Part shown: in pieces, positions 22,621 through 32,435 of the stretch
How the letters are laid out: each line of letters begins with the position of its first letter
Numbering within the stretch: the stretch's first letter is position 1
IMG/VR virus record: IMGVR_UViG_3300025889_000073
Coordinates: 107,729 to 171,728 of that record
Strand: one strand, 5' to 3'
From: a virus
Length of the DNA stretch: 64,000 nucleotides
Program-made: the position numbers and the translations under genes
The notes under the pieces: generated by a model
Seen by the model: the letters and a program-made list of their open reading frames with translations, nothing else
Database searches by the model: none
Told to the model about the DNA's origin: nothing

Positions 22621-23523
22621 ATGCCTACTAATTTCTATTTCAATAATTTTCCAGCCAACCATGTAACGCAAGAACAACTTCTTGTCGAAGATTTGGTCAT
22701 TGAATCCATGCAAATTCATGGAATGGATGTGTTTTATCTTCCTAGAACAACAAGAGACCAAGTAGATTATCTTTATGGAGAAGATACACTCAAACAATAT
22801 GTATCCGCATATCCTATTGAAATGTATTTGGAAAATGTTACTGGTATGGATGGAGAAGGAGATTTTGTTTCTAAATTTGGTTTAGAAATTAGAGATGAAG
22901 TTTCTTTATTAGTTTCTCGCCGTAGATTTGCATATCAAGTTGGTCAAAACATAATTAGACCTAGAGAAGGTGATTTGATTTATATACCATTAGTAGAAAA
23001 CTTTTTTGAAATTACTTTTGTTGAACACGAAAACGACCAGGCTATGTTTTATACATTGGGTCGTGGCCGTGGTGGTAATGTTTATGTTTATTCACTAAAA
23101 ATGAAACAGTTTGTGTTCTCAAATGAATTGATATCAACAGGAATAAGTGAGATTGATGAACAAATTCGTGACAATTATTCTAGAACAAGATTAACTGTGG
23201 ATACTGGTGGTAGTGGAAACTATAAACAAGATGAAATTATTTACCAAGGAACAGATTTGGCCAATGCTACAGCAACAGCTGTTGTACATACTTGGGATTA
23301 CCATACTAAAGCATTAGACATTTATCGGGTGATTGGTACTTTTGCTGGGTCATCGTCAATCATTGGCGACGAAAGTGGCGCAATTTGGACACAAACAGGT
23401 GCAGCTGACGATACTGTATTTGATAATAATGTGTTTGAGGACATTGTTGACAATACCAGAATTGAAACGGAAGCGGATTCAATAATCGACTTTTCAGAAA
23501 TTAACCCATTTGGTGAACCATAA
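22621..23523 (+). CDS. 14: Neck protein gp14
   Basis: A 300-residue gp14 homologue (T4: 256). The N-terminal HGMDVFYLPRTTRDQVDYLYGED and YPIEMYLENVTGMDGEGDFVSKFG are typical of T4-like gp14. It completes the neck above gp13. Residues about 210-260 form an extra beta domain (YKQDEIIYQGTDLANATATAVVHTWD) of the kind inserted in several aquatic T4-like structural proteins. The stop TAA overlaps the gp15 ATG by one base. Confidence 0.9.
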   Translation: MPTNFYFNNFPANHVTQEQLLVEDLVIESMQIHGMDVFYLPRTTRDQVDYLYGEDTLKQYVSAYPIEMYLENVTGMDGEGDFVSKFGLEIRDEVSLLVSRRRFAYQVGQNIIRPREGDLIYIPLVENFFEITFVEHENDQAMFYTLGRGRGGNVYVYSLKMKQFVFSNELISTGISEIDEQIRDNYSRTRLTVDTGGSGNYKQDEIIYQGTDLANATATAVVHTWDYHTKALDIYRVIGTFAGSSSIIGDESGAIWTQTGAADDTVFDNNVFEDIVDNTRIETEADSIIDFSEINPFGEP

Positions 23524-24566
23524 TGTTAGGCAAAAACCATTTTTATAACCGAACAATAAGAAAAGTCGTTGTGGCTTTTGGTACTATTTTCAATGATATC
23601 TATTTGCAAAGATATTCGAAAGATGGTAATACTGCATACGAAAAATTTAAAGTACCTCTTTCTTATGGGTCCAAAGAAAAATATATCACACGAATTACAT
23701 CAGACCCGAATTTAACAAAATCTGTCAATACATTGGTGCCTAGAATTTCTTTTGAGTTGACAGGTTTTAATTATGATAGTTCCAGAAAACAAATAAGTTC
23801 ATTAAGAAATTTTGCAAAAGATTCTACCACAGGAGCTTTGGCAACACAATATGTACCTGTTCCTTATGATTTTACATTTTCGTTATCCATTTATGTACGA
23901 AACACAGAAGATGGTACACAAATTATAGAACAAATTTTGCCTTTTTTTACACCAGATTTTAGTGTAACGGTTGATTTTATACCTGATATGAATCAGAAAT
24001 ATGACATACCTATCATACTGAATTCAGTATCAACATCAACCGATTATGAAGGCGACATGATGACAACTCGCTTAATAACATGGGATTTGGAATTTACGGT
24101 CAAAGGTTATATCTGGCCAGCAGTAATTAATCCTTCTGGTTTAATTGGCGATTCTTATGCCAATACAAGTGCTCCTGGTGGAGTTTCTTATGGCAGAGTT
24201 ATTACCAATCTATATGAAGAAACTCAAAACAAATCAGCACAAAAAGTTGTTGTTGATTATGCAAATGGAAACAATTACTTTTCAACTTCAGAAACAATTA
24301 GAGTTGAAAGTAAAGGAATAACTGGAAAAATAATTTATTTTAGTAATAGTAGTAGTGGCATATTAATTGCTGGTGAGTTGAATCAGCTTTTGGAAGTTGG
24401 TGATATAGTGCGTGGCGATTATACTGGTGCTAAATATACCATAACATCACTGGATAGTTCTCCAGTAAAATCAGTATCAATAATCACAACGACAGTACCT
24501 GAAGATTCTGATCCAGATGATGAATTTGGATTTGCAGAAACTATTAATGAATGGCCAAATGCATGA
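23523..24566 (+). CDS. 15: Tail sheath stabiliser gp15
   Basis: A 347-residue gp15 homologue (T4: 272). FYNRTIRKVVVAFGTIFNDIY at the start and the central PYDFTFSLSIYVRNTEDGTQIIEQILPFF are hallmarks. T4 gp15 forms the hexameric terminator ring that caps the tail tube and sheath and joins the neck. The C-terminal 130 residues are an extension with an added beta-strand domain. It overlaps gp14 by one base and gp16 by an ATGA. Confidence 0.9.
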   Translation: MLGKNHFYNRTIRKVVVAFGTIFNDIYLQRYSKDGNTAYEKFKVPLSYGSKEKYITRITSDPNLTKSVNTLVPRISFELTGFNYDSSRKQISSLRNFAKDSTTGALATQYVPVPYDFTFSLSIYVRNTEDGTQIIEQILPFFTPDFSVTVDFIPDMNQKYDIPIILNSVSTSTDYEGDMMTTRLITWDLEFTVKGYIWPAVINPSGLIGDSYANTSAPGGVSYGRVITNLYEETQNKSAQKVVVDYANGNNYFSTSETIRVESKGITGKIIYFSNSSSGILIAGELNQLLEVGDIVRGDYTGAKYTITSLDSSPVKSVSIITTTVPEDSDPDDEFGFAETINEWPNA

Positions 24567-24970
24567 TGGAAAAATTAAACAAAAACTTATCCGAAGCTTT
24601 AGAATTGGAACCAATCAAGTTTGGTTCTGACGAAAACTTACCTGTTTATTCAAATAAACAAGAACCTATACAAGACGATTCCGAATTCGCCAGACACAAC
24701 ATTCGTGAATTGATTGAAAAGGGTAATGTTGCGATTGATAATCTCCTACACGTTGCTAAAGAATCTGAACACCCTAGAGCTTATGAAGTCGCAGCAGGTT
24801 TAATTAAAAATTTATCTGACTTAAACAAAGATTTGTTAGAGGTACAGAAAAGAAAACAAGATTTAACTGGTGAAAAACAAAGTAAAAATATGAATATTGA
24901 TAAAGCTGTGTTTGTTGGTTCCACTTCAGAATTGGTAAAATTTTTAAAAAACAATAAAGGACAAGAATAA
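24563..24970 (+). CDS. 16: Terminase small subunit gp16
   Basis: A 135-residue protein if started at the ATG overlapping the gp15 stop (ATGATG; a further in-frame ATG lies 12 bases upstream). The order 15-16-17 and the helical central region (ARHNIRELIEKGNVAIDNLLHVAKESEHPRAYEVAAGLIKNL, about residues 45-85) match T4-like gp16, which recognises concatemeric DNA and stimulates gp17. The C-terminus is Lys-rich. Its stop overlaps the Dps-like gene by one base. Confidence 0.85.
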   Translation: MMEKLNKNLSEALELEPIKFGSDENLPVYSNKQEPIQDDSEFARHNIRELIEKGNVAIDNLLHVAKESEHPRAYEVAAGLIKNLSDLNKDLLEVQKRKQDLTGEKQSKNMNIDKAVFVGSTSELVKFLKNNKGQE

Positions 24971-25404
24971 TGGAACGATTGATTCAACAGTTAAAGGTTA
25001 TATTGGGTACAAATTTTAGTTTGTATTTTAAATCACACAGCTTCCATTGGAATGTGGAAGGTGCTGATTTTGTACAGTACCACACTTATCTTGGTGATTT
25101 TTACGAAAAAGTTTTTGATAACACCGATATTCTTGCTGAAAAAATTCGAATGTTGGATTCATATGCACCAACAGGACTCTCTCGTATGATTGAATTATCA
25201 GCAATAGAAGAAACAGAATCGATTCCTGACGCATTAGGTATGTTTAATGAATTAAAGTCTGATAATGATAAGATGATTGTACAAATTAAAGCTGGTATAG
25301 TTTTGGCAGACCAAGAAAACGAATCTGCGGTTTCAAATTACTTACAAGAACTTTTAGACCAACACCAGAAACACGCATGGTTTTTCCGTAGTATAACGAA
25401 ATGA
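24970..25404 (+). CDS. Dps-like ferritin-family protein
   Basis: A 144-residue protein with the Dps signature: SFHWNVEGADFVQYH near residue 24, followed by DNTDILAEKIRMLD. Dps proteins form 12-mers that oxidise and store iron and protect DNA. Compared with E. coli Dps, His26, His38, Asp53 and Glu57 occupy the ferroxidase positions H51, H63, D78 and E82, but the D67 position is Gly42, with an Asp one residue later. It is shorter at the N-terminus than E. coli Dps and lacks the long Lys-rich tail. It sits between gp16 and gp17 with overlaps at both ends, an unusual place. A protective or packaging-linked role is inference. Confidence 0.85.
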   Translation: MERLIQQLKVILGTNFSLYFKSHSFHWNVEGADFVQYHTYLGDFYEKVFDNTDILAEKIRMLDSYAPTGLSRMIELSAIEETESIPDALGMFNELKSDNDKMIVQIKAGIVLADQENESAVSNYLQELLDQHQKHAWFFRSITK

Positions 25405-27026
25405 CAGAAGGCGGTTATCTTGGTAATGACCGACTAAAAAAAGTTGGTGTTGAAATATCATATACCGAAGAACAAGTCAAAGAAATTATAAAATGTTCTG
25501 AAGACCCGGTATATTTTATTAAAAACTATGTTCAGATCGTACACGTTGATAGAGGTTTAATACCTTTTGATATGTGGCCGTTTCAAGAAGAAATGGTCAA
25601 AGATTTCCATGAAAATCGTTTTTCAATTTGTAAGATGCCTCGGCAGGTTGGTAAAACGACTACGACAGTTGGTTATATGTTGTGGTGTGTTTTATTCCAA
25701 GATGAATACACGATTGCAATTTTGGCCAACAAAGGCGCCTTAGCTCAAGAAATACTTTCACGTTTACAGAAAGCTTATGAATATTTACCACTTTGGTTAC
25801 AACAAGGTATCATTACTTGGAACAAAAGAAGTGTTGAACTGGAAAACGGTTCAAAAATTTATGCTTATGCAACATCCGCAGCTGGTGTTCGTGGTGGCAC
25901 ATACAACTTAATATTTTTAGACGAATTTGCTTTCGTGCCTAAGAATATGGCAGACGATTTCTTTACGTCTACTTACCCTGTTATTTCTTCTGGTCAAACG
26001 ACAAAAGTTATCATTGTTTCAACCCCTTATGGTCTAAACCACTTTTATAAGATGTGGGTCGATGCGTCTGAAAGTCGTTCTCTTTACAAGCCAATTGAAG
26101 TTCATTGGTCGCAAGTTCCTGGCCGTGATGCTAAATGGCGTGAAGAAACCATAAGAAATACCAGTGAAGAACAGTTTCGCCAAGAATTTGAGACTGAGTT
26201 CATTGGTTCATCGGCAACTTTAATATCTGGTGCTAAATTAAGAAGTCTGGCATTTTTTAATCCTTTATCTTCCGATGATAATTTAGACATTTATGAACAA
26301 CCCAAACCCGGACATTTGTATATCTGTACGGTGGATTGTTCAGAAGGTGTTGAACAGGATTATTCAACTATAAATGTTCTTGATGTTTCCCAAACTCCAT
26401 ATAAACAAGTTGCTAAATACCGAAACAATAAATTACCATTATTGTTTTTTCCAACAATCATTTACTCGATTGCAAATAGATTCAATGAAGCGTTTGTTTT
26501 AATTGAGACAAATAATGTTGGCCAACAAGTTGTAGATATATTACACTATGACTTAGAATACGAAAATGTTTATAAAATTGACCATCATCACATAAAAGGA
26601 CAAACAATATCGGGTGGATTCAAACGAGCGGCCAGTTTTGGTATTAAAACCACCAAATCAGTTAAAAAAATTGGTTGTGCAAACCTCAAAACTCTAATAG
26701 AAACTGACAAATTAATCATTAATGATTTTGACACTATTGCAGAACTGAACACATTTACAAGAATCCGAGATACATACCAAGCAGAAGAAGGTAATAACGA
26801 TGACTTAGTAATGGGTTTAGTACTGTTTGCATGGCTAACCGCACAGTCATACTTCAGAGATTCTACGAATATTGACATTCGTAGAGTACTTATAGAAGAA
26901 TATAATATGGCCGAAGAAGAAAATATCACTCCTGTAGGTTTTATCGAAGATGGACGAAAAGAAGAAATTATAAATGATGGATATGACATTTGGACTGAAA
27001 GAGGTTATCCATCTTCAATTTTATAA
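25401..27026 (+). CDS. 17: Terminase large subunit gp17
   Basis: A 541-residue packaging ATPase/nuclease (T4: 610). Walker A is MPRQVGKTT near residue 79, Walker B LIFLDEFAF near residue 170, with coupling motif VSTPYG near 206. The RNase H-fold nuclease begins with TVDCSEGVEQDYS near 310 and includes VLIETNNVGQQV near 370. The N-terminal region is shorter than in T4. Its ATG overlaps the Dps-like stop (ATGA), so it is translationally coupled to it. Confidence 0.95.
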   Translation: MTEGGYLGNDRLKKVGVEISYTEEQVKEIIKCSEDPVYFIKNYVQIVHVDRGLIPFDMWPFQEEMVKDFHENRFSICKMPRQVGKTTTTVGYMLWCVLFQDEYTIAILANKGALAQEILSRLQKAYEYLPLWLQQGIITWNKRSVELENGSKIYAYATSAAGVRGGTYNLIFLDEFAFVPKNMADDFFTSTYPVISSGQTTKVIIVSTPYGLNHFYKMWVDASESRSLYKPIEVHWSQVPGRDAKWREETIRNTSEEQFRQEFETEFIGSSATLISGAKLRSLAFFNPLSSDDNLDIYEQPKPGHLYICTVDCSEGVEQDYSTINVLDVSQTPYKQVAKYRNNKLPLLFFPTIIYSIANRFNEAFVLIETNNVGQQVVDILHYDLEYENVYKIDHHHIKGQTISGGFKRAASFGIKTTKSVKKIGCANLKTLIETDKLIINDFDTIAELNTFTRIRDTYQAEEGNNDDLVMGLVLFAWLTAQSYFRDSTNIDIRRVLIEEYNMAEEENITPVGFIEDGRKEEIINDGYDIWTERGYPSSIL

Positions 27027-27087: not shown

Positions 27088-28773
27088 ATGGCATTCCAAT
27101 TATCACCTGGGGTAAACGTATCTGAGATTGACCTCACTACGGTTGTCCCCGCAGTCGCCACTTCAACTGGCGCAATTGCTGGAAATTTTGCATGGGGTCC
27201 AGTCAATGAAATAGTTACCATTTCTGACGAGGTTCGCCTAGCAGACACATTTGGTAAACCTAATGAAGATAATTATGAACACTGGTTCTCAGCATCAAAC
27301 TTCCTATCATATTCTAATAATTTAAAAGTTGTTCGAGCTGCCGGCTCCGGAGCATTAAATGCTGGTTCCAATTCAACCGGAGTACTTGTCGGTAATGATG
27401 ATGAATATTCAAGTGCTACACTCACTCTAGTCACCCACGGCGAATGGATTGCAAGATTTCCTGGTGAACTAGGCAATTCACTTAGTGTTGAGATGGTAGA
27501 CAGCAACACAATTACCACCTTGGCCAATAGTGGTCTGGACAAATTTGTTCCTTCTGCTGCACCTGGAACATCTACTTGGGTAAATGCACAAGGAGGTTCG
27601 GATGATGAACTGCACGTTATTGTAATTGATGCTCAAGGCAAATTTACTGGTGTGGCAGGACAAGTTTTAGAAACATTCCTTTATGTCTCTAAAGCTTCTG
27701 ATGCTAAAGATGATTATGGTAATACAAATTATTACGCTCAAGTCATAAACAATAGGTCGAAATATATCCGTTGGGCTGCCCACACAGATTTGACGACGGC
27801 CGCCGAAAGTTGGGGAAATACAGCTGCCAATGTAACATTTGCTAACCTGACTTCAAATGTTACATCAATATTAAATGGTGGTGCTGATGGTACTTACAGT
27901 TCTGGAAATACTGTAACAGGTTTAGGTTTGTTTGCATCGGCTGAAGCTGTTGACGTTTCGTTGTTAATTGGTGGTCCTGCCGATTCGACTGTTGTTAGTG
28001 AACTACACGATATTGTCGAATCCAGAAAAGATTGTCTTGCTTTCATTTCACCAGAAAAAGCTGATGTTGTAAACAATGCTGGTTCTGAAGCAACAGACGC
28101 TATTGCATATCGTGATGGCTTAACATCATCTTCTTTTTTGGTGATGGATTCAAATTGGAAATATCAATACGACAAGTACAACGACAAGTATCGTTGGATT
28201 CCTTGTAACGCTGATGTTGCTGGTGCTTGTGCAAGAACAGACCAGCAACGTGACCCATGGTACTCGCCAGGTGGTTTAAATCGAGGTATACTTAAAAATG
28301 TTATTAAGTTGGCATGGAATCCAAATCAAGCCGACCGTGATAACCTCTACCAAAAAGGTATCAACCCAATAGTTTCTTTTGCTGGTGAAGGTACAGTTCT
28401 GTTTGGTGACAAAACAATGTTGTCTAAGCCTTCTGCATTTGACCGCATTAATGTTCGCCGGCTGTTTATTGTACTTGAGAAAGCAATTTCCCGTGCTGCA
28501 CGGTACTCAATGTTTGAATTTAATGACCAATTCACAAGAGCACAGTTTGTAAATTTGGTCGAACCATTCTTGCGTGATGTACAAGGCCGCCGTGGTATTA
28601 CCGACTTCCGTGTTGTTTGTGACGAATCCAATAATACTGGACAAGTTATTGACCGTAACGAATTTGTTGGTGATATCTACATTAAGCCCGCACGTTCTAT
28701 TAACTTTATCCAACTCAACTTTGTTGCGGTTCGCACAGGCGTATCGTTTAATGAAGTTGTAGGACAGTTCTAA
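27088..28773 (+). CDS. 18: Tail sheath protein gp18
   Basis: A 561-residue contractile sheath subunit (T4: 659). The start FQLSPGVNVSEIDLTTVVPAV and the C-terminal conserved domain (YSPGGLNRGILKNVIKLAWNPNQ near 390, then FGDKTMLSKPSAFDRINVRRLF near 435) are classic. The C-terminal FVGDIYIKPARSINFIQLNFVAVR is the handshake domain common to sheath proteins. It is expressed late and in many copies; a strong AAGGAG site and use of GGT/CGT codons fit that. Confidence 0.95.
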   Translation: MAFQLSPGVNVSEIDLTTVVPAVATSTGAIAGNFAWGPVNEIVTISDEVRLADTFGKPNEDNYEHWFSASNFLSYSNNLKVVRAAGSGALNAGSNSTGVLVGNDDEYSSATLTLVTHGEWIARFPGELGNSLSVEMVDSNTITTLANSGLDKFVPSAAPGTSTWVNAQGGSDDELHVIVIDAQGKFTGVAGQVLETFLYVSKASDAKDDYGNTNYYAQVINNRSKYIRWAAHTDLTTAAESWGNTAANVTFANLTSNVTSILNGGADGTYSSGNTVTGLGLFASAEAVDVSLLIGGPADSTVVSELHDIVESRKDCLAFISPEKADVVNNAGSEATDAIAYRDGLTSSSFLVMDSNWKYQYDKYNDKYRWIPCNADVAGACARTDQQRDPWYSPGGLNRGILKNVIKLAWNPNQADRDNLYQKGINPIVSFAGEGTVLFGDKTMLSKPSAFDRINVRRLFIVLEKAISRAARYSMFEFNDQFTRAQFVNLVEPFLRDVQGRRGITDFRVVCDESNNTGQVIDRNEFVGDIYIKPARSINFIQLNFVAVRTGVSFNEVVGQF

Positions 28774-31270: not shown

Positions 31271-32001
31271 AATCATTAGAAGATTTTAAAAATACTTTAG
31301 AAGAAGAAAAATCAGACTACTCTAAGTTTGATGTGTTAGTTCGTGCTGGGCTTGCTAACAAAGCTCAGCTTGCTCGTATACACCGTGTTTTGGATAAAAT
31401 GACGGAAGACCGGCCACAATTTAATAATGCCGATAAAATGATTGTGCAGAATTTGTTCAATAAGATGGTCGACTTACTATCCAATAATAAACAAATTTTT
31501 CAAAAAACTAGACAAGCAGTTAGAGAAGAATCCGAAGAAGAATTTGAAAATGCAATTCAAATTTCTGAAGAAACCCCAGACTTACCTAAGGACCCACCTT
31601 TCGTTTTGGTGTTAAAAAGAAAAGCTATAAGACTTTTTCCAAACAAAGTTAAAATGGCTTTGTATTACAACCAAAAATTAGACAAGTATTTTTCAATACC
31701 TTACGGACCAAATGTTTCTGCTGGCCCGTTGCAAGCAGAAGAAGCCGAAGAAGAACAAGTTACGATTGTAGAAGCGGTAATGGACCAATTACATAAGATT
31801 GTAGGCAAGAAGCAAGCGAATACAGTTAAGTTTGCCAACGGCCAAACTAGGAAGGTGGACCACTTCACTGCTTCTGCAATCACTCAAGTACACAATGCCC
31901 TCAATGATGAAAACAAAAAGAAGTTTGCAGATATGGTTCATAAATCACCTGCACACTTAGCTAAAGCATCAGACTTTGCTTTTAGTAGGGCTAAAAAATG
32001 A
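31267..32001 (+). CDS. Conserved T4-like head-operon protein
   Basis: A 244-residue protein lying between the gp67- and gp68-like genes. The N-terminal half (SDYSKFDVLVRAGLANKAQLARIH, then NNADKMIVQNLFNKMVDLLSNNKQIFQ) is a conserved protein of aquatic T4-like phages known to me only as hypothetical. The centre (FVLVLKRKAIRLFPNKVKMALYYNQ) and the C-terminal TVKFANGQTRKVDHFTASAI region (about residues 185-205) look like separate small domains. ATGA overlaps link it to both neighbours. Participation in the prohead core is inferred from position. Confidence 0.6.
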   Translation: MKSLEDFKNTLEEEKSDYSKFDVLVRAGLANKAQLARIHRVLDKMTEDRPQFNNADKMIVQNLFNKMVDLLSNNKQIFQKTRQAVREESEEEFENAIQISEETPDLPKDPPFVLVLKRKAIRLFPNKVKMALYYNQKLDKYFSIPYGPNVSAGPLQAEEAEEEQVTIVEAVMDQLHKIVGKKQANTVKFANGQTRKVDHFTASAITQVHNALNDENKKKFADMVHKSPAHLAKASDFAFSRAKK

Positions 32002-32435
32002 CATTCTTAGATTGTATTTTAGAGAACAAACTAAGTGAGGCAAAAGATAAAATTATCGAGCGTCTAAATAATATTGCGGCAAAAAAATTAGAAGAAGCAA
32101 AAAAATATATTGCTTCTGATATGTATGAAGAAGTTGAGATAGATGAGGCTGCAAACCGCAACATTATTAAGATGGGTAGAATCAGTAAGATTCGCCGTAG
32201 GATTCGAAGAAATGCAAAAGGTCGTATTGTTGTTCAAAAGAATCGCAGACGGTCAGGTATTAAAGGATATAGAATTTCAGGTAATACAGTAAAACGTATT
32301 CCTGCCACAGAAAGATTAAGAAAGGCACGTTTATTAAAACGGTCATGGAAAACAACTAGAAGAGCTAAATTGCGCCGGTCATTGTTAAAAAGGAAGATGT
32401 CAATGCGTAGGCGCTCATCAATGGGACTAAGATAA
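31998..32435 (+). CDS. 68: Prohead core protein gp68-like with basic tail
   Basis: A 145-residue protein. Residues 1-50 (DCILENKLSEAKDKIIERLNNIAAKKLEEAKKYIASDMYEE, shown here by its ends) match the recurrent N-terminal helical module of T4-like prohead core proteins. From about residue 58 to the end the protein is extraordinarily basic, dense in Arg and Lys (RISKIRRRIRRNAKGRIVV; KRKMSMRRRSSMGLR). The order 67-x-68-21-22-23 supports gp68. The tail could contact DNA or the acidic scaffold. The name is from position and N-terminal pattern only. Confidence 0.55.
   Translation: MTFLDCILENKLSEAKDKIIERLNNIAAKKLEEAKKYIASDMYEEVEIDEAANRNIIKMGRISKIRRRIRRNAKGRIVVQKNRRRSGIKGYRISGNTVKRIPATERLRKARLLKRSWKTTRRAKLRRSLLKRKMSMRRRSSMGLR

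Follow-up and report, generated by a model that had tools for sequence, protein, structure and literature searches.

The Dps of Escherichia coli, which represents the DNA-binding type of the family, has an N-terminal lysine-rich tail, and the internal head proteins of phage T4 carry an N-terminal head-targeting peptide. The nearest solved homologue of the phage protein described here is the Dps of Pseudomonas aeruginosa (PA0962, PDB 8ff9), a peroxide-using ferroxidase with a demonstrated role in H2O2 defence, which can also cleave DNA in vitro when divalent cations are present and binds Fe1 through H37, D64 and E68, and Fe2 through H49 and E68 (PMC10002758). Dps genes are already known as such in phages: in the accessible text of the respective reports, those of Lactobacillus phages (PMC6669764) and of the gut Gratiaviridae (PMC8008677) are interpreted as protection against oxidative damage, and neither a terminase junction nor a fusion with a prohead protease is reported there. 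According to the same text, the Lactobacillus phage gene adjoins genes of DNA metabolism (PMC6669764), whereas the dps gene of the present phage lies at the junction of the two terminase genes. What is new in our analysis is a virus-only clade of Dps proteins and the fusion of Dps with prohead protease and, in one contig, with TerL; a conserved terminase-junction Dps or a protease fusion was not found in the literature searched, which left out most subscription journals.

The dps gene at the terminase junction

The window, i.e., the whole stretch of 64,000 nucleotides analysed, is a portion of a 171.7-kb virus record and contains a T4-like late block in the order gp14, gp15, gp16, dps, gp17, gp18, followed by more head and tail genes. 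On the plus strand, the tail sheath stabiliser gene gp15 (23523..24566; PF16724, 3e-69) precedes gp16, the terminase small subunit (24551..24970; PF11053, 3.6e-9; phrog_445, 5.7e-34), whose true start is probably the ATG at 24563, overlapping the gp15 stop; then come dps (24970..25404, plus strand, ATG start), which encodes a virus-type Dps mini-ferritin of 144 aa, the terminase large subunit gp17 (25401..27026, plus strand; PF03237, 2.1e-27; PF17289) and the tail sheath gene gp18 (27088..28773, plus strand; phrog_23, 3.7e-144). The stop codon of gp16 (TAA, 24968-24970) shares one base with the dps ATG at 24970, and the end of dps shares four bases with the start of gp17 (ATGA, 25401..25404, plus strand), just as the original prediction had described. 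A likely ribosome-binding site for dps, AAAGGA, is located inside the gp16 gene (24956..24961, plus strand), 8 nt upstream of the ATG, and no clear ribosome site precedes gp17 in the window sequence, which makes coupled translation of dps and gp17, possibly through the ATGA, plausible. The overlaps thus support the view that dps is placed for translation together with gp16 and gp17. A late promoter belonging to dps itself was considered and rejected, as the window shows no enrichment of CTAAATA or TATAAATA, and neither is present immediately before the gene. No ferritin-like gene other than dps was found in the whole virus record. Further along the window, in the head gene block past the probable portal gene, a very basic protein of 145 aa (31998-32435) is perhaps a prohead core protein.

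Viral contigs were retrieved by Dps and, independently, by gp17, and 63 of the 80 loci found through gp17 have dps. Of 239 related viral loci holding both dps and gp17, a set that includes near-duplicates of single contigs, 229 have the two genes no more than 40 nt apart, and of the 230 that show gp16, 226 have dps equally close to it; the survey of this junction that had been proposed therefore found the position conserved on both sides. The dps gene evolves under purifying selection (median omega of about 0.21, compared with 0.25 for gp16 and 0.06 for gp17) and, since over 200 related viral loci also show this gene order, dps is a real gene far beyond chance. In the annotated phage collection only seven records match the window Dps at 1e-5, and the two of them that were inspected, S-EIV1 and BUCT695, carry dps away from the terminase genes. 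The gp17 of Pelagibacter phage Mosig EXVC030M and Synechococcus phage DSL-LC03 is related (54% identity) and belongs to the same late block, but neither phage has Dps at the junction, which holds a 69-aa ORF of no known family in the former (L529:2290-2499) and nothing in the latter.

Judging from these sequences, the address at the junction is fixed and its occupant is mobile. The gene is missing in several lineages, an absence that requires about six changes on gp17 trees, and must therefore be dispensable; the records lacking it, which are short fragments, contain no Dps elsewhere. Two types of Dps, about 40% alike, have switched at least seven times on the gp17 tree, and alleles only 38-45% identical have been exchanged beneath gp17 proteins that are 93-94% identical, as in the pair L134 and L153, which are 94% alike in gp17, 88% in gp16 and only 44% in Dps. 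A component of the terminase motor is expected to be retained with gp17 and co-adapted to it, and dps shows neither trait. Because divergent alleles swap under a near-identical gp17, co-adaptation of Dps with the motor is improbable, and the tight functional tie to the motor implied by the original prediction is weakened. Open reading frames resembling NUMOD3 or GIY-YIG proteins, the GIY-YIG matches being under the curated cut-off, occur between dps and gp17 in three loci (L136, L325 and L030), and in L321 gp16 and dps are separated by an HNH endonuclease; homing could drive the exchange of Dps alleles. In another locus (L152), a 1.7-kb insertion between gp16 and dps contains a glycine-rich ORF that resembles a tail-fibre or adhesin protein.

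Fold, surface and metal site of the viral Dps

The identification of the window protein as Dps is agreed upon by a PDB sequence search, Pfam (Ferritin PF00210, 2.3e-20), PHROGs (PHROG 3636, 2.5e-31), AlphaFold2 and Foldseek. The AlphaFold2 model of the monomer (pLDDT 96.9) has helices at residues 2-28, 34-49, 51-61, 70-76, 88-115 and 119-143, that is, the four-helix ferritin-like fold plus the short extra helix of Dps, and Foldseek superimposes it on P. aeruginosa Dps 8ff9 with a TM of 0.95 at 29% identity. With this fold and with the ferroxidase ligands in place, the Dps-like identity first proposed is borne out. The P. aeruginosa protein shares all four iron ligands with that of the phage and differs in having Glu53 where the latter has Gly42, and in being the product of a cellular stress gene outside any packaging operon.

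Almost all the viral proteins measured (128/129) are 144-145 aa long, and 88 distinct proteins are acidic (pI 4.8-5.8). A positively charged N- or C-terminal tail was not found, given this length, the acidic pI and a helix that begins at residue 2, and the window Dps also has no N-terminal head-targeting peptide, as nothing extends ahead of the first helix in the model. The phage protein therefore differs from E. coli Dps, a member of the same family, in being acidic and without the lysine-rich tail, which favours protection through iron chemistry over DNA binding mediated by a tail.

Residues H26, H38, D53 and E57 of the window Dps align with H37, H49, D64 and E68 of PA0962, and in a tally of 313 viral and 78 cellular proteins, made without a motif filter, none of the four varies where it is covered; the few gaps are truncated frames. 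The first histidine was partly favoured by retrieval, since some search patterns contain HWN, and H38, D53 and E57 much less so. Position 42 is Gly and position 43 is Asp in the window protein, and the residue of P. aeruginosa Dps aligned with Gly42, E53, is not among the iron ligands (PMC10002758). Gly is found at position 42 in 102/171 proteins of the terminase-junction group and in 72/142 other viral proteins, and Glu in 72/78 cellular relatives, which are the nearest matches to the viral profile and hence not a sample of all Dps; the pattern of one scan included G, N or D at this position, and the other scans, without it, show the same trend. Being so frequent, Gly42 is a viral tendency and not a peculiarity of the window phage, and some viral Dps retain Asp or Glu there. 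An acidic residue four places past the second His, although common, is not taken here as defining Dps, because it is not a ligand in PA0962; the window protein lacks it. The statement that the ferroxidase residues are conserved except at the position of E. coli Asp67 consequently stands for the four ligands and for the presence of Gly42 and Asp43, but the exception falls on a position that aligns with a non-ligand, the counterpart of Asp67 having been judged by alignment to P. aeruginosa Dps (E53) and not to E. coli Dps. Position 43 varies freely, so Asp43 is no conserved substitute, and an altered metal site at Gly42/Asp43 was rejected as a candidate; the altered metal chemistry suggested earlier gains little from a change at a non-ligand position while the four true ligands are invariant. 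Elsewhere in the protein, Asn99 (window numbering) is nearly invariant in viral Dps, and His occupies this position in 62/78 cellular relatives.

Virus-only ancestry and links to head genes

In a tree of 113 rows, built from few columns by a quick method, 80 viral Dps group against 32 cellular ones with an SH-aLRT of 99, and one further viral row (L521) is placed among cellular Dps. On this phylogenetic ground the window Dps and its relatives form a virus-only clade, as defined in this analysis. Recent capture from a host was rejected as an origin, because the viral proteins form a clade of their own and the nearest cellular matches are about 42% identical or less, a figure that leaves out L157 and L158, two phage contigs binned as bacteria. 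These two were binned as Bacteroidetes and Gammaproteobacteria genomes and are phage-like by gene content.

Outside the terminase-junction group, the Dps relatives adjoin late genes, such as those of a cytidylyltransferase-like protein and a virion structural protein; Dps overlaps the head protease gene in L405 and comes after the major head protein in L158. In about 33 loci Dps is a domain within a long protein, and eight of the nine long proteins scanned have a prohead serine protease match ahead of it, with one match below the curated cut-off. These fusion frames, which come from uncultivated phages, include L413:3317-5524, L419:3335-5218 and L425:3134-5152, besides those of L443, L458 and L408, and where checked they stand between the portal gene and an SU10-type capsid gene. 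The ninth protein scanned (L407:2-4936) is a single frame of 1645 aa that has portal-like, protease-like and Dps matches and runs off the end of the locus. C-terminal to Dps, the protease fusions have an acidic stretch rich in Ala and Glu, which may be a scaffold. Proteins named prohead protease in BFVD also contain the Dps fold. In these other phage groups Dps is thus a domain of a head-maturation protein, whereas the window Dps is free-standing; both belong to the one virus-only clade and have the four ligands in common. One contig (L078:1294-3267) has Dps and TerL in a single frame of 658 aa, which may be an assembly error.

Possible roles in the infected cell

The most economical account, which we consider reasonably probable, is that of a late mini-ferritin that guards phage DNA around packaging and is no co-adapted subunit of the terminase motor. 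Dps would be a late product, translated from a message shared with gp16 and gp17, and would most likely assemble from the modelled monomer into the usual hollow dodecamer, in which the predicted two-iron centres would bind and oxidise Fe2+, probably using H2O2, a role supported by the fact that PA0962, with the same four ligands, does so (PMC10002758). The removal of Fe2+ and peroxide would then keep hydroxyl radicals from forming at a time when newly replicated phage DNA, soon to be packaged, fills the cell. The fold, the conserved ligands, the purifying selection, the conserved junction and the virus-only ancestry are the observations behind this account. It would be counted against if Gly42 slowed iron oxidation, which it could do. 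The extreme reading of the Gly42 change, a Dps that is no ferroxidase and serves, for example, as a scaffold or as a binder of another metal, seems quite improbable to us: position 42 is indeed most often Gly in viral proteins and Glu in cellular ones, but the four ligands are invariant, the aligned Glu of P. aeruginosa Dps is not a ligand and some viral members keep an acidic residue there. Direct contact of Dps with DNA during packaging, for example as a partner that nicks or holds DNA for the terminase, would be in line with the in vitro cutting of DNA by PA0962 in the presence of divalent cations (PMC10002758) and with the Dps-TerL frame; nevertheless, that frame comes from one contig of doubtful assembly, the protein is acidic and tail-less and it is not co-adapted with gp17, and we regard such contact as very improbable.

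The position itself may have no functional meaning, the junction being a permissive site for cargo, visited by endonucleases, and Dps a generic stress gene. We find this doubtful, even though the repeated changes in presence and type of Dps on the gp17 tree, the endonuclease-like ORFs of four loci and the different small ORF of Mosig all fit it, for the cargo is nearly always Dps, with few endonuclease-like or other inserts, it is always co-oriented and tightly packed, and in unrelated phages Dps of this clade is retained next to other head genes. Were general protection the sole role, it would not be explained why Dps is linked again and again, in separate groups of phages, with genes for heads and packaging. 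That link might instead mean that viral Dps acts at the procapsid or virion or within it, where it would be built into or enter the head and shield the packaged DNA from iron and radicals, the junction gene being the free-standing form. The loci in which Dps stands within a long protein, mostly behind a prohead serine protease where scanned, argue for this, as do L407, L405, L158 and the BFVD prohead proteases, all of which fall in the same virus-only clade as the window protein. The window dps, however, adjoins the terminase and not the protease, and we consider such a role rather unlikely; since its product is free-standing and has no N-terminal extension like the T4 targeting peptide, a procapsid role in the window phage is possible but unproven. 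The suggestion that Dps acts on DNA awaiting packaging or enters the head receives indirect support from the sequences of its protease-fused, virus-only relatives. More tentatively, we envisage that this viral lineage might have been kept as a module associated with heads and packaging, free-standing in the terminase-junction clade and protease-fused in others, in which a mini-ferritin at the procapsid or within it would protect DNA during and after packaging.

Phage Dps genes have been known so far as scattered stress genes. The gene at the terminase junction of a large group of uncultivated phages and the protease-fused Dps of other phages indicate that phages may have tied Dps to the making of heads. 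Its constant position within the packaging operon of a phage group that is widespread, together with the protease fusion, suggests that assembling heads or packaging DNA may include keeping iron and radicals under control.
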